Part shown: in pieces, positions 15,483-29,558 of the stretch
Layout of the letters: each line of letters begins with the position of its first letter
Position numbering within the stretch: the stretch's first letter is position 1
Source of the DNA: an uncultured Desulfatiglans sp.
GTDB lineage: Bacteria > Desulfobacterota > DSM-4660 > Desulfatiglandales > Desulfatiglandaceae
Assembly (NCBI GenBank): GCA_900498135.1
Contig: LR026961.1
Span: forward strand, 4,504,037 to 4,549,209
Direction of reading: 5' to 3'
DNA length: 45,173 nt
The notes under the pieces: model-generated
Database searches by the model: none
What the model saw: only the letters and a program-made list of their open reading frames with translations
What the model was told of the DNA's origin: nothing
Position numbers and translations under genes: made by a program

Positions 15483-15692
15483 GAACAACCGGTCATACGA
15501 CCCTGCAACCTTGCCGGCGCAGGGGCTCGTTGCCTTTCGTAAAGGCCGCTTTGCTCATAAGATCCGGATCGCATTTTTTGCCATATTTTAACATGCTTCT
15601 TTGGCGTTGAACACCGGGAAGTTTCAGCTTGTGAAGGATCCCCCATCACGGCAGCGTTTCTCCCTTAAAAACGGCAATCTCCCAACGATACC

Positions 15693-15798
15693 CAGGAAAT
15701 CAAGCGGTTGCGCGGAGGCGACCTGAATGTCGCCGCACAAGCAAACGTGCAGATTGACGCCGATATTGGCCAAAAAGACCATTTCCGGCAGGAAATTA
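15693..15798 (-). repeat. Fold-back repeat copy A
   Basis: In reverse orientation relative to copies C-E. It contains AGGAAATCAAGCGGTTGCG, then GGCGAC-CTGAAT-GTCGCC (loop altered, stem kept), GCACAAGCAAACGTGCAGA, and ATTGGCCAAAAAGACCATT followed by TCCGGCAGGAAATTA. One outer arm (the TTTGGCCAATAT side) is missing or too diverged to align, so the copy looks truncated at its left end. Confidence 0.8.
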
Positions 15799-16343: not shown

Positions 16344-16484
16344 GTTTTTGATCTGGAAAGGAGCGTTTTCTGTCAGTATCAAGGAAATCAAACCGTTGCG
16401 CGGAGGCGATCTGCAAGCCGCCGCATAAGCGAACGTATGGATTCACTCAGAAATCGACAAAGAAATGCATTTCCGGATGGGAAT
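16344..16484 (-). repeat. Fold-back repeat copy B (diverged)
   Basis: The most diverged copy, in the same orientation as copy A. It aligns without indels over most of its length to the reverse complement of copy D: TATCAAGGAAATCAAACCG, TTGCGCGGAGGCGATCTGCA, and ATGCATTTCCGGATGGGAA at the right. The central palindrome is degraded (GGCGAT-CTGCAA-GCCGCC), so its inner hairpin would be weakened. It ends about 60 bases before the tetraheme cytochrome start. Confidence 0.7.
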
Positions 16485-16547: not shown

Positions 16548-16928
16548 ATGGGATCCAAATCTGAGAAAATGATCGCTTACTGCCTTGCAGCGGTACTGCT
16601 GGTCGTCGGTGTCGTGTCTTACGTCGCATCGGCTCACCAGAAACCGGATGAACTCGTGAGGATCATGCTGCAGAACAGTGCCGGCGGCGTTCTCTTCACC
16701 CACATGAACCACGCCTCGGAAGATGAATACGGGATCGCCTGCACCGACTGCCATCATGCCTGGGATGAAGACCCGGAGACCTCCCCGGGCCGTTGCAGCG
16801 AATGCCACGAGCCTGAGGGCGAGGACCCCATGAAGTCGTCCGATGCTTTTCACACGTTGTGCCAAGGGTGCCATGAGGACGGGGGCAGCGGCCCTGTCGA
16901 ATGTGGTGAATGCCATGTCTTTCAGTAG
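16548..16928 (+). CDS. Tetraheme class III-like c-type cytochrome, Rnf-associated
   Basis: 126 residues from ATG 16548. An N-terminal hydrophobic segment (about 8-28) acts as signal or anchor. Four heme-binding CXXCH motifs follow: CTDCH (Cys65-His69, followed by His70), CSECH (83-87), CQGCH (105-109) and CGECH (119-123). His52 and His55 in FTHMNHAS are probable axial ligands. The size and motif number fit the cytochrome c3/c7 superfamily. It is the first gene of the rnf operon, 60 bases before rnfC, the same order as mmcA-rnfCDGEAB in Methanosarcina acetivorans, where the cytochrome carries Rnf electrons. I infer a periplasmic electron partner of RnfG/RnfC here. Confidence 0.9.
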   Translation: MGSKSEKMIAYCLAAVLLVVGVVSYVASAHQKPDELVRIMLQNSAGGVLFTHMNHASEDEYGIACTDCHHAWDEDPETSPGRCSECHEPEGEDPMKSSDAFHTLCQGCHEDGGSGPVECGECHVFQ

Positions 16929-16940
16929 CGATTCGAGCTG

Positions 16941-16966
16941 CGGGCACTGCGAAACCTTGCTGCCCG
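16941..16966 (+). other. Hairpin between the cytochrome gene and rnfC
   Basis: CGGGCA (16941-16946) pairs with TGCCCG (16961-16966) round a 14-base loop in the short spacer. There is no T-run. It could set the ratio of cytochrome to Rnf subunits by mRNA processing or partial attenuation. Confidence 0.35.
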
Positions 16967-16988
16967 TCGAATGGGTGAGGAGGTGTTT

Positions 16989-18269
16989 ATGTTGAAGAGA
17001 TCCTTTTTCAGCCTGACAAAGCCCAGGCTGAAACCCCCGGTTTTGTGGACCGAGACGTCCACCGCGCCGCTGGAGATGCCCGCCCCGCAGACCGGAACTT
17101 TCTTTTTCCCGCAGCAGGGCCCCCTCAAGGATACCCTCGGCCTGCGCCCTGGAGACGCCATCAAGACGGGGCAGAAACTCTCATCGGTCCTCGACGAGAA
17201 GCGTTTTCTGGTTTCCCCGCTCACAGGGGCGATCCGTGCAATCGACGAATATACCGGGTACATGGGTCAAAAATTCACCTCCTTCACGGTGGACATCAAA
17301 CCGGAAGACGAATGGGACCCCGGCTTCGGCGAAAAGGTCGATCGGGGCGATTTCGAGGGCGCCTTGGCCTATTTGACCAATCTCCCGGGGGGCGATATCT
17401 TCGAACCCCTCGCTGCCGTCAATGACCGGACGGCGACGATTCTCATCAGCGCTCTCGAGGATGACCTCTTCGTCGCGAACAACCGCCATGCCTTGACCGG
17501 GGCTGCCGATGCCCTTAAAAACGGCATTGCACAGCTCAAGGGGACGGCGCCATCCGCCAAGGTTATCCTGGCAGCCCCCTCCGATCTCGGCGGCGCAGCG
17601 AACCGCACCGGGGCAGAGGTCCACCTGGTCGATCCGATTTACCCTGAGACACTTCAGCCCCTGCTGATGCGAAGACTCCTCGGCAAGAGCGGCGGGGGTG
17701 AGCAGGCAGGGTCGGGCGCTGTCTTCGTCACAGCCGATGCCGTGGCCCTCTTGGGAGAGGCGTTCAGCCTGAAGCGCATCCCGGTTTACAAGGTCTTCAG
17801 CGTCTTCGATAAGACCATGAGACCTCATCAAGTCAAGGCCCGTGTCGGCACACCGATCCGTCATGTCCTCGAGGTGCTTCAGCTTTCGACCGAACACGGA
17901 GACAGGCTGATCAGCGGCGGTCTGATGAGAGGGCAGACGCTTTTTTCCGAGGATTTTCCAATTCTGCTGAGCACAACCGGTCTTCTCCTGCAGGATAAAT
18001 CGCAGGTCAAGAGTGCAGACGACACGCATTGTGTGAACTGCGGGGAATGTGTTCGTGCCTGCCCTGCAAAAATACCGGTGAACATGCTGATCCGTTTTCT
18101 CGAGAACAGACTTTACGATGAGGCCGAACGGGACTGGGACCTCTTCTCCTGCATCGAGTGCGGCCTTTGCAGTTATGTCTGCATCGCTCATATCCCGCTC
18201 TTTCACTACATCATGCTCGGCAAACACGAGATTGCCCAGATGAGGGGCGAGGAGGAAGCCCATGCTTAA
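16989..18269 (+). CDS. rnfC: Rnf complex subunit C, divergent
   Basis: 426 residues from ATG 16989 (MLKRSFFSLTKP), with GAGGAGG 5 bases upstream; an ATG at 16971 is less likely because it contains this site. The N-terminal lobe and SLBB-like region are followed by two ferredoxin-type 4Fe-4S sites, CVNCGECVRACP and CIECGLCSYVC, near residues 345-400. In classical RnfC the region after the N-terminal lobe has a glycine-rich FMN/NADH loop (GGxGFPTxxK type) and then an NGAECEPYLT-like acidic motif. Here the corresponding places read LPGGDIFEPLAAVN and ISALEDDLFVANNRHAL, so the usual NADH site looks lost. The stop overlaps rnfD by 8 bases. Confidence 0.9.
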   Translation: MLKRSFFSLTKPRLKPPVLWTETSTAPLEMPAPQTGTFFFPQQGPLKDTLGLRPGDAIKTGQKLSSVLDEKRFLVSPLTGAIRAIDEYTGYMGQKFTSFTVDIKPEDEWDPGFGEKVDRGDFEGALAYLTNLPGGDIFEPLAAVNDRTATILISALEDDLFVANNRHALTGAADALKNGIAQLKGTAPSAKVILAAPSDLGGAANRTGAEVHLVDPIYPETLQPLLMRRLLGKSGGGEQAGSGAVFVTADAVALLGEAFSLKRIPVYKVFSVFDKTMRPHQVKARVGTPIRHVLEVLQLSTEHGDRLISGGLMRGQTLFSEDFPILLSTTGLLLQDKSQVKSADDTHCVNCGECVRACPAKIPVNMLIRFLENRLYDEAERDWDLFSCIECGLCSYVCIAHIPLFHYIMLGKHEIAQMRGEEEAHA

Positions 18270-19230
18270 CCAGAAACTCTTAGTCGGCTCGCATGCCCCT
18301 TTCTGGCACAACGGCAGCAGCCTCTACAGCAAGAACGCCAACATCATGCTGGCTGCCTTGCCCGCTGTCGCCATGGGCATTTACCAGTATGGGATCCCCG
18401 CCCTGGCCGTGTTAACGTTGAGCGTCGCCTCGGCTATGATCTGGGAGTGGCTCTTCAACCTCGCGGCCCGCCGCCCTGTGAGTATCGGAGATCTGGATGC
18501 CGCGGTGATCGGGCTGATCTTCGGCATGCTGTTGCCTGCCGGGGTCGCGTGGTGGGTGGTTATCATCGGTTCTTTCGCAGCCGTTGTCATCGGCAAAATG
18601 ATCTTCGGCGGCGTAGGCTGCAACCCCCTCAATCCACCCCTGGTCGGGTTGGCCATTCTGATGCTCTCCTGGAAATCCCTGGTCGAATTCAACGCCGCGC
18701 TGGTTGACTACAACCTCGGGTTCAACATGATCTATCCCCTGAGCGCTATTAAATTCCTTGGGGCGGGCGCCGCTGCCGACTACGATGTCACGGGGTTTCT
18801 CATGGCAGGTCAATCCGGTGCGATCGGGGCCACATTCGGCCTCGGGTTGATCATCGGAGGCGTCTATCTGATCCTCCGCGGCTTCATCCGCTGGGAAATC
18901 GCTGTTTCGTTCCTCGTGGGCGTTTTCCTGTCGGCCCTTTTGTTCAATCTGAGCGATGCAGAGAAGTACGCCCCGCCCCTCTTCCACCTCCTCACCGGCT
19001 ACACGCTGATCGGCGCCTTCTTCCTTGCAACCGAGGATTCTTCATCTCCGATCAATTTCGTGCCCATGCTTATCTACGGTTTGGCCGGCGGTGTCATGAC
19101 CGTCCTGATCCGCAACATCGGGGCCTTCGTCGACGGAGTGGTCTTCGCAGTTCTCCTCTTGAATGCCGCAAACCCGCTGCTCGACAAGATCAGACCCAAA
19201 GCGATGGGGAGGGATATTCAAAATGCGTGA
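18262..19230 (+). CDS. rnfD: Rnf complex subunit D (membrane, covalent FMN)
   Basis: 322 residues, about nine to ten membrane helices, NqrB/RnfD family. The likely covalent FMN acceptor is Thr191 in GAIGATFGLGLIIGG, a delta/clostridial variant of the SGAT motif. Other family marks are GCNPLNPPLVGLA and the C-terminal FFLATEDSSSPIN, like the usual FMATD-PVT segment. It transfers electrons across the membrane and is part of the ion pathway. It overlaps rnfC by 8 bases at its start and rnfG by 8 bases at its end, so translation is coupled. Confidence 0.94.
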   Translation: MLNQKLLVGSHAPFWHNGSSLYSKNANIMLAALPAVAMGIYQYGIPALAVLTLSVASAMIWEWLFNLAARRPVSIGDLDAAVIGLIFGMLLPAGVAWWVVIIGSFAAVVIGKMIFGGVGCNPLNPPLVGLAILMLSWKSLVEFNAALVDYNLGFNMIYPLSAIKFLGAGAAADYDVTGFLMAGQSGAIGATFGLGLIIGGVYLILRGFIRWEIAVSFLVGVFLSALLFNLSDAEKYAPPLFHLLTGYTLIGAFFLATEDSSSPINFVPMLIYGLAGGVMTVLIRNIGAFVDGVVFAVLLLNAANPLLDKIRPKAMGRDIQNA

Positions 19231-19807
19231 AATGCTGAAGCTTTTCCTTTCGGTGGTGATATTCAGCGCCCTTGCCGGCGGCCTCCTGACCGCCTTGCAG
19301 AACAGCACCAAAGACCGGATCGAGTACCAGCAACTGCTGTTCGTCAAAGGACCGGCCATCCTGGAGATCCTCGACGGCTGCACCAACGATCCCCTCGTCG
19401 ACCGCTTCAAACTCCAGGACGGGGAAACGGAAAGAAGCTTCTTTATCGGCAAGTTCGATGGGAAGCCTGACACGGTCGCCTTCGAGACCTACGGCGGCGG
19501 CTTCGGCGGCGACATCGGCGTGATAGTGGCCGTCAATGTCGAAACCGACAAGATCGTCGGCATCGGTGTGACCACTCACAGTGAAACGCCCGGCATCGGC
19601 TCACGGGCAAAAACCGACAAGGCCTTCAGCCGACAGTTTCAGGGGATGGACATCGCCCAGACCTTCAAGGTCAAATCGGACGGCGGGCAGGTCGACGCCA
19701 TCAGCGGTGCAACCGTCTCGTCCAAAGGCGTTGCAAGCGCCGTCGATGCGGCTGGTCAAATCTATCAACGTTTGAAATCCGAAATCGTGAAGAAGACGCA
19801 GGCGTAA
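19223..19807 (+). CDS. rnfG: Rnf complex subunit G (periplasmic FMN-binding)
   Basis: 194 residues from ATG 19223; the longer open frame upstream is rnfD overlap. One N-terminal membrane helix (about 5-23, LKLFLSVVIFSALAGG) anchors a periplasmic FMN_bind domain. The flavin is attached at Thr164 in DAISGATVSSKGV; THSETPGIGSRAK is the other family signature. RnfG passes electrons between RnfD and outside partners, which fits the tetraheme cytochrome at the head of the operon. It overlaps rnfD by 8 bases and is followed by rnfE after 18 bases. Confidence 0.95.
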   Translation: MREMLKLFLSVVIFSALAGGLLTALQNSTKDRIEYQQLLFVKGPAILEILDGCTNDPLVDRFKLQDGETERSFFIGKFDGKPDTVAFETYGGGFGGDIGVIVAVNVETDKIVGIGVTTHSETPGIGSRAKTDKAFSRQFQGMDIAQTFKVKSDGGQVDAISGATVSSKGVASAVDAAGQIYQRLKSEIVKKTQA

Positions 19808-19825
19808 GCCGGGGAGACTAGGCAA

Positions 19826-20419
19826 ATGGCAAAAACGGTTGTCCAGGAATTTACAAAAGGGCTTTGGGCAGAGATTCCGCCCTTCCGGCTGGTCCTCGGC
19901 CTTTGTCCCACGCTGGCTGTAACCAAGTCCGTAGACGGCGGCATCGGCATGGGCATCGCCACGACCTTCGTGCTCGTGTGCTCCAATGTCCTCGTGTCCC
20001 TTCTCCGCAACGTCATCCCGAAACAGGTTCGGATCGCCTGTTTTATCGTCGTTATCGCCACCTTCGTCACCGTCGTCGAGTTGCTCATGCAGGCATTTAC
20101 CTATCCCCTGTTCCTGCAGTTGGGTATCTTTATCCCCCTGATCGTGGTGAACTGCATCGTTCTCGGTCGTGCAGAGGCCTTTGCCTTCAAAAACAAGCTC
20201 CTCCCTTCTCTCGCCGACGGGCTCGGGATCGGTATCGGCTTTACCCTTTCCCTCGCCGCCCTCGCTGCTCTCAGGGAGATACTCGGGAACGGGACCTTTT
20301 ACAATATCCCGGTTTTCGGCCCCTCTTTCCAGCCCTTCACCTTTATGGTGCAAGCACCCGGGGCCTTTGTGTGCCTCGGGCTCATGCTTGCGGGAATGAA
20401 CATGCTGGGCAAAAAATAG
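19826..20419 (+). CDS. rnfE: Rnf complex subunit E
   Basis: 197 residues, six membrane helices, RnfE/NqrD family. Cys27 (in GLCPTLAVT) and Cys110 (in VNCIVLGRAEAFA) match the two cysteines that, with two from RnfA, hold the intramembrane 2Fe-2S centre described for Rnf and Nqr structures. REILGNGTFY is the usual family tail segment. A GGGGAGA site lies upstream of ATG 19826. It sits in operon order C-D-G-E-A-B. Confidence 0.95.
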   Translation: MAKTVVQEFTKGLWAEIPPFRLVLGLCPTLAVTKSVDGGIGMGIATTFVLVCSNVLVSLLRNVIPKQVRIACFIVVIATFVTVVELLMQAFTYPLFLQLGIFIPLIVVNCIVLGRAEAFAFKNKLLPSLADGLGIGIGFTLSLAALAALREILGNGTFYNIPVFGPSFQPFTFMVQAPGAFVCLGLMLAGMNMLGKK

Positions 20420-20461
20420 GAACCGCGGCGCATTGTTCCCGCGGCGTTAGGAGAGACTCAT

Positions 20462-21037
20462 ATGGGCGACTACATCCTGCTGGCGATCAGCTGCATTTTC
20501 GTGAACAACATTCTGCTGGCGCAGTATCTGGGCAACTGCCCCTTTCTGGGGACATCCAAAAAGATGGAAACCGCCGTCGGCATGGCCATGGCCGTTATCT
20601 TCGTGCTGGTCATGGCTGGCGCCATCACCTGGGTGGTCGAATACTTTCTTTTGAGACCCTACGGCTTCGCATTTCTGAGGACCATCGCTTTCATCCTGGT
20701 GATCGCCTCCCTGGTCCAGTTCGTCGAGATGTTCCTGAGAAAAAGCATCCCTGCGCTTTACGCCGGGCTCGGCATCTTTCTGCCCTTGATCACGACAAAC
20801 TGCGCCGTGATGGGCGCCTGCCTCATCAACATCAAAGAGGAATACACCTTCATGCAGACGCTGGTGTCTTCCTTCTCCTACGCGGCGGGTTTCGGCCTGG
20901 CCCTCGTCCTTTTTGCGGGCCTGCGTGAACGAATCCTGCTCGCCCGCGTTCCCCGGCCCCTGCAAGACACCTCGATCGGGCTCGTGACGGCCGGACTTTT
21001 GTCCTTGGCTTTTCTGGCCTTCAAGGGGATGGTCTAG
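20462..21037 (+). CDS. rnfA: Rnf complex subunit A
   Basis: 191 residues, six membrane helices, RnfA/NqrE family. Cys26 in GNCPFLGTSKK and Cys114 in TTNCAVMGACL pair with those of RnfE for the membrane 2Fe-2S cluster. AGLGIFLPLI and the C-terminal FLAFKGM segment are typical. ATG 20462 has AGGAGA 6 bases upstream. The 42-base spacer after rnfE contains two CCGCGG words able to pair (near 20425 and 20441). Confidence 0.95.
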   Translation: MGDYILLAISCIFVNNILLAQYLGNCPFLGTSKKMETAVGMAMAVIFVLVMAGAITWVVEYFLLRPYGFAFLRTIAFILVIASLVQFVEMFLRKSIPALYAGLGIFLPLITTNCAVMGACLINIKEEYTFMQTLVSSFSYAAGFGLALVLFAGLRERILLARVPRPLQDTSIGLVTAGLLSLAFLAFKGMV

Positions 21038-21123
21038 GCCGGTTCTTATCATCGTCGGCCCCAGGAGCACGACTTCGGTCTTGGAGCCATCACGCCTGCT
21101 CGAGCAATTCGATCCCGGGGGTT

Positions 21124-21139
21124 CCCGCGGATCCGCGGG
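21124..21139. promoter_or_regulatory. 16-bp perfect palindrome before rnfB
   Basis: CCCGCGGATCCGCGGG reads the same on both strands and ends 22 bases before the rnfB start. The spacer after rnfA is 124 bases, the longest in the operon, and also has GGCCG...CGGCC pairing (about 21038-21060). It could be a protein-binding operator, a processing hairpin or an attenuator that sets RnfB level separately. Confidence 0.4.
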
Positions 21140-21161
21140 CAGGCTTTAGAGGAGGCATGTT

Positions 21162-23228
21162 ATGGTTGGCGGTCTGTTACTCTTGGGCGGGTTGGGCTTG
21201 CTCTGCGGTGCCGGCCTTGCCGTTGCATCCAAGATTTTTTACGTCTACGTCGACCCGAAGGTCGAGGCCGTCAGTGAGGCCCTGCCCGGCGCGAACTGCG
21301 GCGGCTGCGGCTACCCAGGTTGCGGTGCGAACGCTGCGGCCATCGTTGCGGGTGAATCGTCGCCCAGTTCCTGCGTCGCCGGTGGTGAGGAACTGGCCCA
21401 GGAGATCGCCCGGATTCTCGGCGTCTCTGTGACCGCCCGCGAACCGGACCTCGCCAAGCCCGGGTGCACCTACGGCTGGGACAAGGCCGATCTCAAATTC
21501 TTGTACGACGGCATCCAGGATTGCCGGGCCGCGGCTCTCCTGAGCGGCGGTTCGAAGATCTGTCCGGTCGGCTGCCTCGGTCTCGGAACCTGTGTCCGGG
21601 CCTGTCCCTTCAACGCCCTCTCCATGGGCGAGGACAATCTCCCCGTCGTCGACCTGACTCGCTGCACGGGATGCGGAACCTGCGAGCGCGTATGTCCCAA
21701 AGGGATCATCACCCTCAGTTCCAACACCCGCCGAATCCTCCACGAATACACCACCGACGAATGCACGGCGCCGTGCCAACGCGCCTGCCCGGCCGGCATC
21801 GATATCCCGGTCTATATCCGTCAGATCCGCGACGGGGAATACCTCGAAGCGGTCCGGACCATCAAGAAGACCAATCCTTTCCCCGCGGTCTGCGGGCGGA
21901 TCTGCGTGCACCCCTGTGAGTTCGAATGCCGGAGGAACCTGGTCGATGAACCGGTGGCCATCAACCACCTCAAGCGCTTTGCCTCCGATTATGAAAGACG
22001 TTCCGGTGAAAGGGTCCATGTGCCAAGGGCGCCCGAAACCGGCCATCGCATCGCGGTCGTCGGCGGCGGAGCCGAAGGCCTGACGGCGGCCTACCTCATC
22101 AATCGTCTCGGACACGACGCCGCCGTCTTCGAATCGAAAGAGATGCTCGGCGGTCTCTTGAGGATCGGCCTGCCCGAGAACCGCCTCCCGAGAGACGTCC
22201 TGGACTGGGAAATCGACGGCATCCTGGACGCCGGGATTGCGGCCCATACGGGGGAACGCCTGGGGTCCGATTTCACCGTCGCCTCCCTCATGGCGGAGGG
22301 GTATGAAGCTGTCGTCATCGCCACCGGCGGATGGGACACCCAGTTGACGGAACGCCGCCCGGAATCGCCGCTCACGCCTCTTCCGGGCGTACGGCTCCTG
22401 ATCGATCTGGCGCTGCGTGCTCAAGCCGGGGAGCCGTTCCAATGCGGCAATCGCGTGATGATCCTCGGCGGGGGCCGCGCCGCGATACAGATGGCCCTCA
22501 CATGCAAAGAACAGGGGACCGACGAGGTCTATCTCGTGGTCCGCACCACCCAGGAAAACACCCATTACCCCGCTGATCTGCTGAACAAGGCCCGTGAGCA
22601 GGGTGTCAGATTCTATCATGGGAGCGCGTTGACTCGCATGATCGGTGAGGGAGATCGTCTGACGCAGGCCGAGATCACCCCGAACATGGACGGCGCCGAG
22701 GGTGTCAGCGAGCCCATCATGCTTCAGATCGACACGATCATCGTCGGTGCCGGACGTTTCCCGGAGCTGATATACACCAAGCAGCCCTCCGAGGGAGAGC
22801 CCTCAACGAGCGCATCCACCGCGGTCAAGTGGGAAACCCTTTTCCCTTACGCCAGTCCGTTTGCGAAGGAAGACATCGGCATATTCCGGCCCGGGGAAGT
22901 GACGAGCGATTACAAGGCCGTTGTAGAGGCCATCGGCGCTGGGCGGCGCGCCGCTTCATCCCTTCACCGCTTTCTGAATGGCGAGCAGGTCACCGCCCCT
23001 GCGCATATGATCCGTCAGGATACGCGGGTGCTGAGCCTTGACCAGCTGGAGCCTGTAAGTTCGGCCCCGCGTGAGAAGATGCCCGAGAGACCACCCCAGG
23101 AACTCGTCAACGACCCGTCGGCTGAAATCGCCCTCGGTTACAGCGAGGAGCAGGCGCGGACGGAGGCCGGCCGCTGTCTGCAGTGCGGGCTTATCTGTTA
23201 TCGGCGGGAGGCGTCACCGAGCAGTTGA
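21162..23228 (+). CDS. rnfB: RnfB fused to a GltD/NfnB-like FAD-NAD(P)H oxidoreductase domain
   Basis: 688 residues, more than twice a normal RnfB. Residues 1-30 are the membrane anchor. Cys46, 49, 54 and 71 (NCGGCGYPGC) form the first cluster site. Two ferredoxin clusters follow: Cys134/138/144/148 and Cys168/171/174/178. From about residue 200 it becomes a glutamate-synthase-beta/NfnB-like unit: 4Fe-4S region CTAPCQRACPAGID (201-214) with CGRICVHPCEFEC (244-256), FAD fold VVGGGAEGLTAAY (about 299-311), GGLLRIGLPENRLP, and a second dinucleotide fold ILGGGRAAIQ (434-443). The basic RRTR that usually reads the NADPH phosphate is RTTQ here, so NADH is possible. It starts at ATG 21162 after GAGGAGG. 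The electron route NAD(P)H/FAD to RnfB clusters is inferred. Confidence 0.92.
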   Translation: MVGGLLLLGGLGLLCGAGLAVASKIFYVYVDPKVEAVSEALPGANCGGCGYPGCGANAAAIVAGESSPSSCVAGGEELAQEIARILGVSVTAREPDLAKPGCTYGWDKADLKFLYDGIQDCRAAALLSGGSKICPVGCLGLGTCVRACPFNALSMGEDNLPVVDLTRCTGCGTCERVCPKGIITLSSNTRRILHEYTTDECTAPCQRACPAGIDIPVYIRQIRDGEYLEAVRTIKKTNPFPAVCGRICVHPCEFECRRNLVDEPVAINHLKRFASDYERRSGERVHVPRAPETGHRIAVVGGGAEGLTAAYLINRLGHDAAVFESKEMLGGLLRIGLPENRLPRDVLDWEIDGILDAGIAAHTGERLGSDFTVASLMAEGYEAVVIATGGWDTQLTERRPESPLTPLPGVRLLIDLALRAQAGEPFQCGNRVMILGGGRAAIQMALTCKEQGTDEVYLVVRTTQENTHYPADLLNKAREQGVRFYHGSALTRMIGEGDRLTQAEITPNMDGAEGVSEPIMLQIDTIIVGAGRFPELIYTKQPSEGEPSTSASTAVKWETLFPYASPFAKEDIGIFRPGEVTSDYKAVVEAIGAGRRAASSLHRFLNGEQVTAPAHMIRQDTRVLSLDQLEPVSSAPREKMPERPPQELVNDPSAEIALGYSEEQARTEAGRCLQCGLICYRREASPSS

Positions 23229-23667
23229 TAGCCGGCTGGCCAGGCAAGATACGGGTCATTCTGGGCAGAAACCTCCCTTTTGCCTTCGCGGCGCGATCGT
23301 AGCGTTTGAGACCGATGAAGGCCGAAGTCAACGCAGCGATTCCTCCAAGGATCGAGGCGGGAGTGGGCTCGGCGCCCACCGCCTCTGCCCAGGTTTGCCC
23401 CACATAGGCCCCAGCTATCATCGCCAGGATTGGACCGCAGTAAACCAGCACTGACAGCCGCAACAGCGATCCTGTGGGCATGCTGATCTCCACGCGGTCC
23501 CCTACCTTGGCCTTCAGTGTATTGTCGATTTCGACGAGCAGATCTTCATTCGAATCGCTGTAACACATGTGACGCGAACCGCAGCTTGCGCAAGCCGGGC
23601 TTCGCTGCATCCGAATATGGGCCTGCGTATCCGAGACCTGCTCGACGACCCCTTGTTCAATCGCCAT
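23191..23667 (-). CDS. rseC: RseC/MucC-family protein (SoxR-reducing system type)
   Basis: 158 residues. A small N-terminal beta domain with a Cys motif CASCGSRHMCYSD is followed by two membrane helices (about 70-92 and 105-121) and a basic tail, the layout of the RseC/MucC family (Pfam PF04246). In E. coli RseC works with the Rnf-like Rsx complex to keep SoxR reduced. Here it lies at the end of the rnf operon on the opposite strand, overlapping the 3' end of rnfB by 38 bases. A role in Rnf assembly or cluster redox maintenance is likely but inferred. Confidence 0.85.
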   Translation of the reverse strand: MAIEQGVVEQVSDTQAHIRMQRSPACASCGSRHMCYSDSNEDLLVEIDNTLKAKVGDRVEISMPTGSLLRLSVLVYCGPILAMIAGAYVGQTWAEAVGAEPTPASILGGIAALTSAFIGLKRYDRAAKAKGRFLPRMTRILPGQPAINCSVTPPADNR

Positions 23668-23838
23668 AACTTACCCGTTCATGGTCCGTCCGAAGCTGCC
23701 TGATGTTGGACATTCCATGCCATCTTTACAGACGTTATCGACCATCTGCGAATTTTGAGTTTGGAGTTTTCTACTATAACCACATTGTTTCAAGATACGG
23801 ATCTCGAGCTTCGTATTTTTCCTCCCTGGAGTGAGCTG

Positions 23839-24066
23839 GTTTCCATCGGGAAATGGTCTTTTTGACCAATCTCGGCGTCAATCTGCACGTTTGCTTGTGA
23901 GGCGACCTGCAGGTCGCCTCCGCACAAACGCTGGATTTCCTTGATATTGGCCAAACCGGGACCCGCCCCGCAGGGGTGGGACTGAGCACGCGCAGCGTGT
24001 AAAGAAAAATCCTCATTCGCGGATTGGAAACTGGGTTCTACCGGGAAATCATTTCCGGATCGAAAC
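23839..24066 (+). repeat. Fold-back repeat copy C with a nested 49-bp insertion
   Basis: Left arm GTTTCCATCGGGAAATGG, then GGTCTTTTTGACCAATCTCG, the central GGCGACCTGCAGGTCGCC (23901-23918), TTTCCTTGATATTGGCCAAA, and right arms ATTCGCGGATTGGAAAC and CATTTCCGGATCGAAAC. Compared with copy D, 49 bases (23956-24004) are inserted between GGCCAAA and AAAATCC. The insert is made of two hairpins, each with a GCA loop: CCCGCCCC-GCA-GGGGTGGG and CACGC-GCA-GCGTG. Confidence 0.85.
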
Positions 24067-25755: not shown

Positions 25756-27627
25756 TCACCGACCGCCCTCTTCACTTGGACCGGAGGAGTTTGTCGGGGC
25801 CAGGAGGTCCTGCCCGCAGCCGAGCGCCCTCAGGCGGATCCCGCCCCATTCCTCGGGCGGGTTCATAAGCGCTTCGATCTCCCGCAGGTCAAGCAGGCGG
25901 AAGCACTTGAGCGCGGGCTCGGAGACCTTCGTCAAAACGGTGTCGATGGTCGGGTCCGCCTCCACCCCCAAGCCCGCCGAGACGCGGTTCAGATGGCATG
26001 CCTCGCAGGGCCGGCCAACCGGGCCGATCGTGTGCGGGATGTACGGCATAAATGCCCATCCTCTGCCTGACCCGTCCCCTCTTCGTGGAAGGACACTGTC
26101 GAGCTGCACCTGCCCGCTTCGATCCACATAACTCACCAGGTACTGATGGCGCGGCCGCATCACGCAGATCCGCCCCTCATGATCCACGCCCAGGGGCAAC
26201 CATTCCCATCGTCTGAAACGCCACCCCGTCAACCAGATCCCAGGGCGGACCCGCCCGCTCAGCCGGTCGAGGGATTCCGGACGGCTCGTTCCGCCCCGCT
26301 GTGCGAGGTGGGCTTCCAGCACGTCCTGCAGATCCGGATCTCCCTGCGCCGTCAGCCCGCGCCAGTCATCTCCGGAAAGGAGATCCAGCCGAACCACGCT
26401 CAGGCCGTAGTCCTGAAAGGACCACTGTGCATGGCACGCGCTGCAACGCACCCGGCGGTGCCCCGAAACGCCGTGGGCGGGCACCGTTCGGTCGAACAGG
26501 GGAAGATCTCGTCTGCCGCCTCCCCCCTTGCCGTCGAAGACTCTGCGTCTATCCGGTTCCGCCGCTTCTTGGTTTTCATGGGCAGGGGTCGCGCGATCCT
26601 CGTTCTCACGGATGCCCCTGGAAGCCTCAAACCGTTTTACGCCCTCAGGCTTGCCGCCCGGGGGTGCCTCCTCCTCCCAGCCCCCGTGGCAGTCCTCGCA
26701 CCCGCGGCCGGGAGACACCCTTTGAGAGGCATAGACCCCGCCGTCCCCCATGACCTCCTGACTGGCGTGACAATCCACACAGAGCATCCCTCTTTCGGCA
26801 TGCACATCCTTGGCGAGTTGATGATATCCCGGCTCGGCAGAATTCACCGCCAACGGGTCGCCAAAGCCATGCGGCCGGTATACCCGGCTCAGGTCCCGCT
26901 CAAAAAGCCCCTCGAAATCCGCCCCTGTATGATTCCGTCGATGACAGCGGAGGCACCTCTCGTTTGGGATCGGGCGCTCGAAGACGTGTCTGGCCGCATA
27001 TCCTGTACGGCCCCGGTCCAGGACCGGGTCATCCCCTTTGTACCGTCCAGAGGCATCATGAGGGACATGGCACGCGGCGCAGCCCGTTCCGCGGTGCAGA
27101 CCGTAGCCCGAAGGCCCCTGTGTGCCGATATGACAGCCGAGGCAGCGCCGGCGCAGAAAATCATCTACCAGAGCGGACGGATCGCCTCCGGCGTACCCGC
27201 CCTCCTGCGGCTCGGGGATCGGCCGGAGTCCCCCTCCCATGCCGTAAACCGGCGGTTCGGCGGCACTCTGCGCGCCCCAGAGAAAGCGGGTCTGGTTGAT
27301 GATCCCTGCAAGGGTCCCGTGCAGAGATCGCCGCAGCCGTGCGATCTCCTCCCGGTGGCAGCCCCCGCAGGAAGCATCGGCATGCGACGGGTCGGACGGA
27401 TTGCGGATCACAGCCTCGTGAGAAGCAAGCCTGAACGCCGCACGCTCCTCCGCATGCAGATGGCAGACCCCGCACTCGAAGTCGTGGCGCTCGTCGAGCC
27501 GTTCGATCCCGGAATGGCATTCCAGGCAGCGGCGAAAACCGTCCGGAGGCTCCCCAGCCCCGTTGCCCGCAGCAGGAATGCAGAAAAACACCGCCACAGC
27601 CAGCCGCAGAACCAAAGCTACCCGCAT
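25756..27627 (-). CDS. Decaheme c-type cytochrome (periplasmic)
   Basis: 623 residues from ATG 27627, the start of a clear signal peptide (RVALVLRLAVAVFFCIPAAG). Ten CXXCH motifs: CLECH, CGVCH, CGGCH, CLGCH, CAACH, CLRCH, CVDCH, CEDCH, CSACH, CEACH. It is a paralogue of the next gene upstream: both share GM-C-DCH followed by MGDG-Y, a GH-R/L-C-ACH-W segment and a late C-ACH. Where the paralogue has CYGCH after this segment, this protein reads QDYGL, so one heme has been lost. It overlaps its upstream neighbour by 10 bases. A role as a periplasmic electron carrier or respiratory cytochrome is likely; the partner and substrate are unknown. Confidence 0.87.
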   Translation of the reverse strand: MRVALVLRLAVAVFFCIPAAGNGAGEPPDGFRRCLECHSGIERLDERHDFECGVCHLHAEERAAFRLASHEAVIRNPSDPSHADASCGGCHREEIARLRRSLHGTLAGIINQTRFLWGAQSAAEPPVYGMGGGLRPIPEPQEGGYAGGDPSALVDDFLRRRCLGCHIGTQGPSGYGLHRGTGCAACHVPHDASGRYKGDDPVLDRGRTGYAARHVFERPIPNERCLRCHRRNHTGADFEGLFERDLSRVYRPHGFGDPLAVNSAEPGYHQLAKDVHAERGMLCVDCHASQEVMGDGGVYASQRVSPGRGCEDCHGGWEEEAPPGGKPEGVKRFEASRGIRENEDRATPAHENQEAAEPDRRRVFDGKGGGGRRDLPLFDRTVPAHGVSGHRRVRCSACHAQWSFQDYGLSVVRLDLLSGDDWRGLTAQGDPDLQDVLEAHLAQRGGTSRPESLDRLSGRVRPGIWLTGWRFRRWEWLPLGVDHEGRICVMRPRHQYLVSYVDRSGQVQLDSVLPRRGDGSGRGWAFMPYIPHTIGPVGRPCEACHLNRVSAGLGVEADPTIDTVLTKVSEPALKCFRLLDLREIEALMNPPEEWGGIRLRALGCGQDLLAPTNSSGPSEEGGR

Positions 27628-29558
27628 GCTCCGCCCCCTGGCGCCCCGCCTCTGCACGGCAGCCCTTCCTCCCGCCCGAAGCGCTCCTTCGACTGCTTGA
27701 AATCGCCGTAAATCGGGTCCTCATAGCTCCGATGGCAGCCTAAACAAAGACCGACCGCGAGGATGCGCTCCAATTCCACGCCATTGAAAGGCCGCGTGCT
27801 GCCCCGATAAGATACGGAATCCTCGCCGCCAAGGGTCGTGAACCCATCGAGCGGGAGCGGGGCCGTCAAAGAGCCCGGACCGCCCCCGGATATCCCCCTG
27901 AAGGCCCATCGCCCCTCCCGCCGATAGATCACTCCCTCCCCCAGACCCAGGGCCTTCGGGTCCGTATGGCACGCGATGCAGTCGCGCGCCCCGGCGGCGG
28001 TCGTATGCGGGTCGAAGCCGCTCAGGCTCAGGCTTCGCAAATACCCGGCCTCTTCCCCCTCCGCGCGCGGGCCGAACAAGGCGAACACCTGGCAAGGCGT
28101 TGCGGGGTAGATGCGTCCGAAGTCCTTCAAGACACCGAGCGTCGGTTTGGAGAACCGCATGTAGGACCGGCTCTCGTACCAACCGCCGTCGCTCTCCTTC
28201 CCCGTCAGCCAATCCCGCTGGGGTTCGGAGGGGAGGTATTCGAGGTGGCAGCCGTAGCACTGCGGCATCCAGGCGCTGTGGCAGGCCTGGCAGGAGAGCC
28301 TTTCGTGGCCCGTCAGCGCGTGGTAGGCCTTCCTGACTTCAAAGACCTTCATCTCCACCGGCGCACCATCCATCTTGCGATAAAGGACCTGCCGCCCTTC
28401 GGCGGCCTGGAGGTGATAAAGCGGGCTCCCCCGCGCGGTGAGGCCGATGCGCCGCCCTTCGAACGAAGGCACCCGGCGGTTCAAATCGAGGAGCCGCCGC
28501 GCCAGGTCATCCGATACGGCGCCGTCGACCAGGTTCGGGCGATGGCAGTCCCCGCAGGAAATATCCACCTGGTCCCGCATCCGGTCGTAGATCTTTCCAT
28601 CCCCCATCAGCCCCGCTGCAGTGTGGCAGTCGATGCAGACCATCCCTGCCTTGCTCAGATGGATGTCCGGAGACAAGTTCATGAAGAAGCGTCCGCCGGA
28701 CAGGGCGCGGCTGCCGAGGCGCCCCCCTTCGTGCGGGGTCCCGTAGCCCTCCGATTCGAATCGCCCGGCATAGGACAATCCGATCCGGGCCGAGCGGTTG
28801 TGGCACTTGATGCAGTTCTCGCTCGGAATGCGCGTGGTGATGGGGGGGTGCTCATACGTTCCCTCCGCCGATTCGAGGCGGACCCTCGCGGCATCCCGGA
28901 CATGGCAGTCGCTGCAGCCGCCGCCCCGCAGCCCGGCTTCACCCGGCCGGTCCCATTTCGGCTTCCAGAGATGACAGCCGGCGCACATCTTCCGGTAGTG
29001 GTCGACGGCCAGGTTCGGAGCGGCACCGGCCTCCATCAGATCCGGAACGGAAAGGCCATCCACAGGATTGCCGAGCAGTGTGCCCATCGGCACAGCCGGG
29101 ACCGCTTCGCCCGTCTTCAGCCAATGGGATTGAATGGTCTTCAGTATCCCCCGGTTCGTAGCCATCAGGCTGTTCTGCACCCTGAGGGCGATATCCCCAT
29201 GGCATTTCTCCTGTCCGCAGGTCTTCGGGACCACCGAAAGATCGCCCGGGTTCCGCACCATGGTGAAGTGCGCCCGGTCTTTGTCAAGCGCATAGGGATT
29301 GCCGAGGTGGCAGACCGCACATCCAAAAGCGGCCGGGGGGTGGGAGGGGTCCGGATCCGTCACTTCGCCGTGGCAGCTCATGCAGCCGTCAGGCCCTGTG
29401 AGGCGCCCCGTTTCCTTCGCAAGGCCTTTCCAGATGATGATCGCAAACAGGGCTAAAACGAGGGGCGTCCAGGCGGTGCGCCAAAGGCGCCTGCCAGCTC
29501 GGAGAGGCCGGGCCGGTGCGCGGGAGCTGCCGCCGGCCGCCTTGGACAGGTCATTCAT
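27618..29558 (-). CDS. Membrane-anchored dodecaheme c-type cytochrome
   Basis: 646 residues. A basic N-terminus and one hydrophobic helix (about 31-47, TPLVLALFAIIIWKGLA) anchor it in the inner membrane. Eleven CXXCH motifs (CMSCH, CAVCH, CAGCH, CSDCH, CIKCH, CIDCH, CGDCH, CQACH, CYGCH, CIACH, CLGCH) plus one CX4CH (CGQEKCH) predict up to twelve hemes. The start ATG overlaps the stop of the MerR-type gene as ATGA (29555-29558), and the downstream cytochrome overlaps its end by 10 bases. These two genes are thus physically joined to the pheST operon. Its function may be electron transfer from the membrane to periplasmic cytochromes; inferred from heme content only. Confidence 0.87.
   Translation of the reverse strand: MNDLSKAAGGSSRAPARPLRAGRRLWRTAWTPLVLALFAIIIWKGLAKETGRLTGPDGCMSCHGEVTDPDPSHPPAAFGCAVCHLGNPYALDKDRAHFTMVRNPGDLSVVPKTCGQEKCHGDIALRVQNSLMATNRGILKTIQSHWLKTGEAVPAVPMGTLLGNPVDGLSVPDLMEAGAAPNLAVDHYRKMCAGCHLWKPKWDRPGEAGLRGGGCSDCHVRDAARVRLESAEGTYEHPPITTRIPSENCIKCHNRSARIGLSYAGRFESEGYGTPHEGGRLGSRALSGGRFFMNLSPDIHLSKAGMVCIDCHTAAGLMGDGKIYDRMRDQVDISCGDCHRPNLVDGAVSDDLARRLLDLNRRVPSFEGRRIGLTARGSPLYHLQAAEGRQVLYRKMDGAPVEMKVFEVRKAYHALTGHERLSCQACHSAWMPQCYGCHLEYLPSEPQRDWLTGKESDGGWYESRSYMRFSKPTLGVLKDFGRIYPATPCQVFALFGPRAEGEEAGYLRSLSLSGFDPHTTAAGARDCIACHTDPKALGLGEGVIYRREGRWAFRGISGGGPGSLTAPLPLDGFTTLGGEDSVSYRGSTRPFNGVELERILAVGLCLGCHRSYEDPIYGDFKQSKERFGREEGLPCRGGAPGGGACG

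Follow-up and report, generated by a model that had tools for sequence, protein, structure and literature searches.

Where do ferredoxin electrons go in an Rnf complex whose RnfC subunit appears unequipped to handle NADH? The question is raised by an operon in a 45,173-nucleotide stretch of DNA (hereafter, the window) from an uncultured Desulfatiglans sp. (contig LR026961.1), in which a cytochrome gene, rnfC, rnfD, rnfG, rnfE, rnfA and a fused rnfB follow one another on the plus strand (16548-23228). Domain and family-model searches of the window proteins revealed a complete RnfABCDEG gene set, and every reading frame in the operon is open. A previous interpretation made from the letters alone (the sequence-only reading) had proposed that nicotinamide dinucleotide (NAD(P)H) chemistry was moved from RnfC to an extension of RnfB. 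We propose instead that the operon encodes an Rnf lacking its return half, i.e., the RnfD threonine that carries covalent flavin mononucleotide (FMN) and the FMN/NADH loops of RnfC. Ferredoxin electrons would then leave the RnfG flavin for the cytochrome c3 of the operon, an interpretation to which, on sequence evidence, we give about an even chance.

The window RnfC (16989..18269) scores 132 bits against the RnfC family model, the cut-off of which is 246, and shows no match at E 1e-3 to either PF01512 (FMN) or PF10531 (SLBB). In the stretch encoded at 17379..17486, an alignment of 99 RnfC proteins, 44 of which are classical, revealed that the GGxGFPTxxK loop is deleted and that ALEDDLF stands in place of the GAECEPY-type motif. 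GGxGFP, GAECEP and ExEPY are absent from all 121 RnfC proteins compared (the window protein and the best 120 of 645 relatives). The eight cysteines of the two 4Fe-4S sites (C348, C351, C354, C358, C388, C391, C394 and C398; 18030..18182) are invariant in the same 121 proteins. The sequence-only reading was therefore right that RnfC lacks both FMN/NADH motifs and keeps both 4Fe-4S sites, and the window protein is, to judge from these motifs, very probably unable to bind FMN and NADH in the classical manner. Because the PF01512 domain is still matched in 35 of the 52 aligned RnfC proteins scanned, mostly relatives, the loops rather than the fold have been lost.

The survey covered 297 genomes of the same phylum. 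RnfC was detected at E 1e-15 in 113 genomes (up to five candidates scored per genome), and RnfB-like proteins were detected at E 1e-100 in 40 genomes (up to three candidates scored per genome); protein searches were based on the best 120 of 2959 RnfB-like and the best 120 of 645 RnfC-like sequences. Nine weak RnfC matches below 124 bits were left out, and 114 of the 127 stronger regions were taken. Of the resulting 115 loci, including the window, 16 were left out because they lacked RnfD or a complete RnfC, and 99 operons were scored, 44 with a classical RnfC and 55 without the loops. A second set of 80 named loci, which includes Desulfonema magnum (L215), Desulfobacter vibrioformis (L221) and Desulfosarcina widdelii (L227), was chosen with the degenerate-RnfC alignment and contains some of the same operons; all 80 lack the RnfC motifs.

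In solved Rnf complexes, according to the available text of the structural reports, electrons are proposed to pass from ferredoxin through RnfB, the RnfA/E cluster and the RnfG FMN to RnfD, and onward from the FMN on the RnfD threonine through riboflavin, the RnfC clusters and the RnfC FMN to NAD+ (PMC11889175, PMC9588780). The window RnfD (18262..19230; PF03116, E 2.7e-84) reads NMIYPL at residues 155-160 (18724..18741) versus [ST]xATPL in classical proteins, and Tyr158 occupies the position of the covalent-FMN threonine; the alignment is anchored by the PL...K that comes after the site. The threonine is present in all 43 readable classical operons (the 44th is truncated, and L011, which reads ASATPL, was counted by eye as threonine-bearing) and absent in 47 of the 55 degenerate-RnfC operons, including all 22 that have a fused RnfB. 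The two traits co-vary (Fisher p 6e-20, on rows that are related and so not independent). The pattern [ST]xAT occurs anywhere in RnfD in 50 of 51 threonine-bearing versus 5 of 47 threonine-less operons, in the latter off-site. All 78 readable RnfD proteins of the named set, which was selected by degenerate RnfC, are threonine-less. The window RnfD keeps the NPLNP motif, and its ATD site reads ATE. An alternative flavinylation motif was considered and rejected, since strict [ST]GA[ST] occurs in 0 of 47 threonine-less proteins; the control is weak, as only 8 of 51 threonine-bearing proteins have it. The loss of the RnfD threonine in degenerate-RnfC operons is new in this analysis; no mention of such a loss in a six-subunit Rnf was found in the portions available of the open-licence text in PubMed Central (PMC), supplements excluded. 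The degenerate-RnfC operons that keep the threonine (L067, L070, L075, L082, L084, L102, L108 and L109; three family codes) represent a further kind of Rnf, featuring an altered RnfC without GGxGFP and, in several cases, a partial ExEP.

Fusion of RnfB follows RnfC decay in one direction only. The 55 degenerate-RnfC operons comprise 22 with a fused RnfB, 18 with a short RnfB and 15 with none in view; among the short proteins, that of L060 ends at a contig end and could be a fusion, and that of L094 is encoded on the other strand. The coincidence of fusion and degenerate RnfC, which the sequence-only reading had suggested tabulating, was borne out in 22 of 22 fused loci (L114 has its fused gene at a distance of about 7 kb, on the opposite strand) and in each of the 41 named-set loci with a fusion (34 class I and 7 class II, one partial), a set selected by degenerate RnfC. 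In these data, fusion implies a decayed RnfC, but a decayed RnfC does not imply fusion. Since short-RnfB operons share the decay (18/55), fusion as its cause was rejected, and with it the idea that an exchange between the subunits led to the loss in RnfC.

The RnfC tree alone is uneven, has long branches and could not order the events. A tree of RnfA, RnfE and RnfG, which contains neither trait, was used instead (a quick tree with a midpoint root, covering the 86 of 99 operons in which all three proteins were readable and the threonine was scored). On this tree a single change of the threonine state suffices; it falls on a branch that holds 43 of the 86 rows and has 100% support in the Shimodaira-Hasegawa-like approximate likelihood ratio test (SH-aLRT). 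Three changes each are required for the RnfC state and for the fusion label, the latter among rows with a visible RnfB. One clade of eight short-RnfB operons, which likewise speaks against exchange as the cause of decay, is found beside the rest of the group, whose 35 rows are united by a branch with 84% support.

RnfG (19223..19807) is of the DVU2794 type (NF045876, 241.8 bits, above the cut-off of 205) and keeps the covalent-FMN motif SGAT (19703-19714); a flavinylation-type motif is kept by RnfG in 46 of the 47 threonine-less operons, and an ApbE flavin transferase is encoded in the window genome. RnfE (19826..20419) keeps Cys27 and Cys110, and RnfA (20462..21037) keeps Cys26 and Cys114. 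These cysteine pairs, which we take to be the ligands of the RnfA/RnfE cluster, are retained in threonine-less operons. Scores against the DVU2794-type model are bimodal, ranging from 183 to 283 bits in threonine-less operons versus at most 152 in threonine-keeping ones (partial matches of the fragmented genome G275 left out). The top three scores belong to operons with a ten-heme gene of 269-283 residues, in which RnfB is short and the flavin motifs of both RnfC and RnfD are missing; these operons are presumably Desulfovibrio-like, a label taken from the name of the model.

The cytochrome gene (16548..16928, plus strand) encodes a tetraheme cytochrome c3-like protein of 126 residues with four CxxCH motifs and an N-terminal hydrophobic segment (PF02085, E 2.8e-11), which scores 67 bits against the TmcA model, below its cut-off of 114. 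We propose that this protein is the periplasmic electron partner. A multiheme gene, defined as one with at least three CxxCH motifs that lies on the strand of the operon and no more than 4.5 kb upstream or 3 kb downstream of it, is found near 33 of the 47 threonine-less operons versus 0 of the 44 classical ones. In the named set, chosen by degenerate RnfC, a multiheme gene is located upstream in 79 of 80 loci. The upstream frames of 12 threonine-less loci without heme genes were listed, and the search for a shared cytochrome substitute among them was not taken further.

RnfB (21162..23228, 688 residues) does continue past its ferredoxin clusters into a GltD/NfnB-like unit, as the sequence-only reading had it; the closest solved relatives of this module are the large subunits of NfnABC and StnABC. 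The RnfB part (21162..21722) comprises a predicted transmembrane helix (residues 2-25), PF04060 and two 4Fe-4S sites. It is followed by a GltD Fe-S domain (Fer4_20; 21744..22016) that has the cysteines found in GltD/NfnB (C201, C205, C209, C248, C252 and C256, present in 27/27 class II proteins), the N-terminal Rossmann part of the flavin adenine dinucleotide (FAD) fold with GGGAEG, E305 and E324 (22041..22361), an eroded NAD(P) domain (22434..22796), the C-terminal FAD part with D583 (22839..22997), which features FRPGE..SDYKAVVEAI versus the class I type FAAGD..GP, and a C-terminal CxxCxxxC (23175..23198), the cysteines of which are present in 27/27 class II and in 61/61 covering class I rows.

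The 89 fused RnfB proteins, which include a few duplicate loci, form two clades split by a branch with 100% support, namely class I (62 proteins, 58 assigned by motif and 4 by tree position) and class II (27 proteins), to which the window protein belongs. N439, A441, D443, R446, Y460, R461, R462, P468, A469, G578 and D579 (window numbering) are present in 62/62 class I proteins. In class II this set of residues is scattered: N439, D443, R446, Y460, R462, P468 and A469 are lost or variable, and at position 579 the 27 proteins have Glu (18), Asp (8) or Pro (1). R461 is kept in 19 of the 27, and in all 122 rows of the alignment of close-relative RnfB proteins. The NADP motif GGGNxA...YRRxxxEMPA is not found in the window RnfB, which reads GGGRAA...VRTTQENTHYPA. 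Mean column entropy of the NAD(P) domain is 2.18 bits in class II versus 1.16 in class I. The trend is reversed in the RnfB Fe-S part (residues 131-187), which is more conserved in class II (0.73 versus 1.25), and the 14 cysteines from C46 to C178 are invariant in 27/27 class II and in all covering class I rows.

The FAD site of the window protein keeps the glycines and E324 (27/27 class II), its GD reads GE, and the acidic residues E305 and D583 are conserved in class II. Residue 305 is E in 25 and Q in 2 of the 27 class II proteins versus A, S, G or T in class I, and residue 583 is D in 27/27 class II versus G in 57/62 class I. In the predicted RnfB model (mean predicted local distance difference test score, pLDDT, of 76), E305 starts helix 304-315, and D583 lies just before helix 586-605. 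These helix ends presumably face the FAD pyrophosphate, so that FAD binding in class II may be changed or lost.

The proposal that NAD(P)H is oxidized or reduced on the RnfB extension is thus not supported for the window protein, in which the NAD(P) residues are eroded, and fits better those relatives that have class I in the operon. A NAD(P)H site on RnfB would moreover sit at the ferredoxin, or input, end of the complex, where electron transfer from ferredoxin to NAD(P)+ need not cross the membrane; the reaction would in that case be changed, not merely moved.

The window genome also carries a class I copy with intact NADPH and FAD motifs (G000:C1:2190303-2192357; L009:10304-12370). No rnf genes are present within its 19-kb surroundings, and its neighbours presumably resemble succinyl-CoA synthetase subunits and small cyclic-nucleotide-type regulators. 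Four family f18 genomes, G161 and G134 show the reverse arrangement, with class I in the operon and class II solo. In G232, G208, G037 and G036, no rnfB is found in the roughly 6 kb beyond rnfA, and the genomes have solo fused copies, which suggests that these act in trans. A classical Rnf is also present in G208 and G037, and its RnfB might serve these operons. G210 lacks both an rnfB with the operon and a solo fused copy. The solo fused genes have no single shared gene context. Near solo class II genes, an RseC-like neighbour was seen by eye in five loci and a HydB-like neighbour in three. In G273 (L240:3507-14063), class II rnfB is followed on the same strand by a gene for a 970-residue formate dehydrogenase/NuoG-like protein with a NuoE domain and, farther on, by one for a 1037-residue HydB-containing protein. 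In G254, a 92-residue RnfB N-terminal fragment is present in the rnf locus (L107, about 12724), and the only long fused RnfB found there is a solo class II protein.

Taken together, the missing return motifs of RnfC and RnfD and the lost NAD(P)H residues of RnfB suggest that ferredoxin electrons likely flow outward to the neighbouring cytochrome c. Electrons would pass from ferredoxin to RnfB, the RnfA/E cluster, the RnfG FMN and the periplasmic cytochrome c, in either direction, and transfer would probably be coupled to cation movement via RnfA/E, as proposed for the Acetobacterium Rnf; run in reverse, the complex would push periplasmic electrons onto ferredoxin. The class II extension would be a relay of Fe-S clusters or a docking module, not a NAD(P)H reductase, and a NADPH-competent RnfB may come from the intact class I copy encoded at the other locus. 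All cofactor statements here rest on motifs, and we infer the direction of flow. The available text on several published systems supports a one-way reading. In two-subunit NqrB/RnfD-like systems, the RnfD-like subunit lacks the flavinylation threonine and one-way outward flow is proposed (PMC11334425, PMC8238504), whereas the window operon has all six Rnf subunits. In Methanosarcina acetivorans, a cytochrome c is co-transcribed with rnf, NAD(P) is not used and RnfG is the proposed cytochrome c donor (PMC4023990); this Rnf is archaeal, however, its RnfD has an SGTF motif, and an RnfB-GltD fusion is not mentioned in the text available (PMC4023990). In vesicles of D. alaskensis, attempts to demonstrate ferredoxin-to-NAD+ coupling were unsuccessful (PMC4841214).

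Several observations weigh against an exit through the cytochrome. The eight RnfC cysteines are invariant, and a dead subunit would not need them; the PF01512 domain persists in most scanned RnfC relatives (35/52); and the M. acetivorans RnfC, taken as a control, exceeds the classical model cut-off, indicating that RnfC decay is not required for cytochrome exit in an Rnf that does not use NAD(P). The window RnfD, which keeps NPLNP, may still hold FMN non-covalently, or riboflavin. No multiheme gene is seen close to 14 of the 47 threonine-less operons, and 8 of the 55 degenerate-RnfC operons retain the RnfD threonine, one of these eight having a multiheme gene. In Desulfovibrio, a mutant in dhcA, the rnf-operon cytochrome, shows almost no fitness effect.

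Part of this evidence would suit a complex in which RnfC is still the exit, passing electrons received through riboflavin or non-covalent FMN in RnfD via its pair of 4Fe-4S clusters to some cytoplasmic acceptor other than NAD+. The invariance of the cysteines in 121/121 proteins argues for such a route, which is close to the suggestion of the Desulfococcus multivorans authors, in the text available, that another RnfC acceptor or donor is needed (PMC5109826). We nevertheless consider it doubtful, as the absent covalent-FMN threonine is part of the RnfG-RnfC link in the solved structures (PMC11889175, PMC9588780). A takeover of NAD(P)H chemistry by the RnfB extension, with possible bifurcation or NADP coupling, could draw on the GltD/Nfn fold and its Fe-S domain, on R461 (122/122 close relatives, 19/27 class II) and on class I relatives with invariant NADP residues. 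It is improbable here, given that the window protein belongs to the class in which NAD(P) residues are lost or scattered and the entropy of the domain is nearly doubled, and that 18 of the 55 operons combine a degenerate RnfC with a short RnfB.

NADH might also reach the complex in trans, from a HydB/NuoF-type subunit that docks on the class II extension in the way that we take GltD-like and HydB-like subunits to pair in StnABC and NfnABC, whose structure entries contain both kinds of chain. A HydB-like gene with domains for FMN and Fe-S is located on the same strand as the fused gene, at most 9 kb away, in 5 of the 27 class II loci versus 0 of the 62 class I loci; two of the five are the same operon, leaving four distinct genomes (Fisher p 0.006 on 4/26). 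In G103 this gene comes immediately before the cytochrome gene of the rnf operon, and in G273 and G231 larger genes containing HydB are found farther downstream of rnfB. The window genome encodes a HydB of 70% identity, with a NuoE-like gene upstream of it, at a site distant from the operon. The lack of adjacency in the window genome and the frequency of HydB-type genes (29 of the 33 genomes searched; one gene in 1 of 44 classical loci) make such docking quite improbable. Decay of the whole locus into a non-functional remnant would account for motif loss in RnfC, RnfD and RnfB, and is highly improbable in view of the open frames, the conservation of RnfG, RnfA and RnfE sites in threonine-less operons of 22 family codes and the abundant formation of Rnf2 in six Desulfobacteraceae strains (PMC11887813). 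The reading we prefer remains exit from the RnfG flavin to the cytochrome.

The layout itself is not new, although the sequence-only reading knew of no characterised complex of this kind. According to the available text, it was reported for Desulfobacula toluolica Tol2 and D. multivorans (PMC5109826), and a 2025 paper names it Rnf2, assigns it to the Desulfobacteraceae core genome and finds it abundantly formed (PMC11887813); a 2024 paper describes Desulfovibrionaceae rnf operons that end with a FAD-dependent oxidoreductase gene and have a ten-heme cytochrome nearby (PMC11434368). The window operon resembles Rnf2 in having a cytochrome gene in the cluster, an RnfB with an extension (about 700 residues in Rnf2, 688 here) and an RnfC without NADH-oxidoreductase and SLBB domains (PMC5109826, PMC11887813). 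It differs in that its class II RnfB, having lost the canonical NAD(P) residues, would appear to lack the NAD-binding site that is among the features of Rnf2; loss of the RnfD FMN threonine is not mentioned for Rnf2 in the accessible parts of these papers (PMC5109826, PMC11887813). With the classical Rnf of Acetobacterium woodii, Clostridium tetanomorphum and Azotobacter vinelandii, it shares the six subunits, the RnfG FMN motif, the RnfA/E cysteines and the RnfC fold, but it lacks the RnfC loops and the RnfD threonine and features a GltD extension and a cytochrome gene. NfnABC/StnABC and GltD/NfnB are the proteins that the RnfB extension matches best in sequence and in fold; in contrast to these proteins, the window protein has a membrane-anchored RnfB part, and the NADP motif is lost in class II.

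More broadly, the data could be read as describing a single-origin Rnf clade, seen in 22 of the family codes sampled from the window's phylum, that works as a one-way transmembrane ferredoxin:cytochrome c pump lacking both return flavins and with exchangeable RnfB-GltD inputs. Class I would read NADPH; class II would not, and would receive its electrons from ferredoxin or from a HydB-type partner that uses NADH; with the inputs in the operon or in trans, one core would serve different electron pools. We offer this scheme tentatively and consider it unlikely to hold in full. Its consequences concern the energy conservation of sulfate reducers, in which Rnf is modelled as a ferredoxin-NADH link in the text available (PMC11887813). 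If both the RnfD and the RnfC flavins are lost, the product in these models is wrong: electrons would enter or leave the periplasmic cytochrome pool, with a class I RnfB or a partner as the only coupling to NAD(P)H. RnfD [ST]xATPL and RnfC GGxGFP provide a simple sequence test for sorting Rnf complexes before NAD+ reduction is assigned, and the natural pair of RnfB paralogues makes the window genome suited to testing input switching.

As to the surroundings of the operon, a Rex-type operator upstream of it was considered and rejected, since matches with up to three mismatches occur in the window at the frequency expected by chance (8 found, 8.5 expected). An RseC/MucC-family gene (23191-23667, minus strand) is convergent with rnfB and overlaps its end. 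Downstream, two multiheme cytochrome genes on the minus strand (25756-29558) encode proteins of 633 and 646 residues with 10 and 12 heme motifs, respectively, which are closest to, and far under the cut-off of, the ExtM family of selenite/tellurite reduction operons. The operon is flanked by an interspersed element of about 97 nt (15689-15796, 16377-16484 and, inverted, 23835-23947), which matches the genome at no fewer than 63 places, 40 of the 318 candidates having been scored; some of the matches are in tandem at a spacing of about 96 nt.

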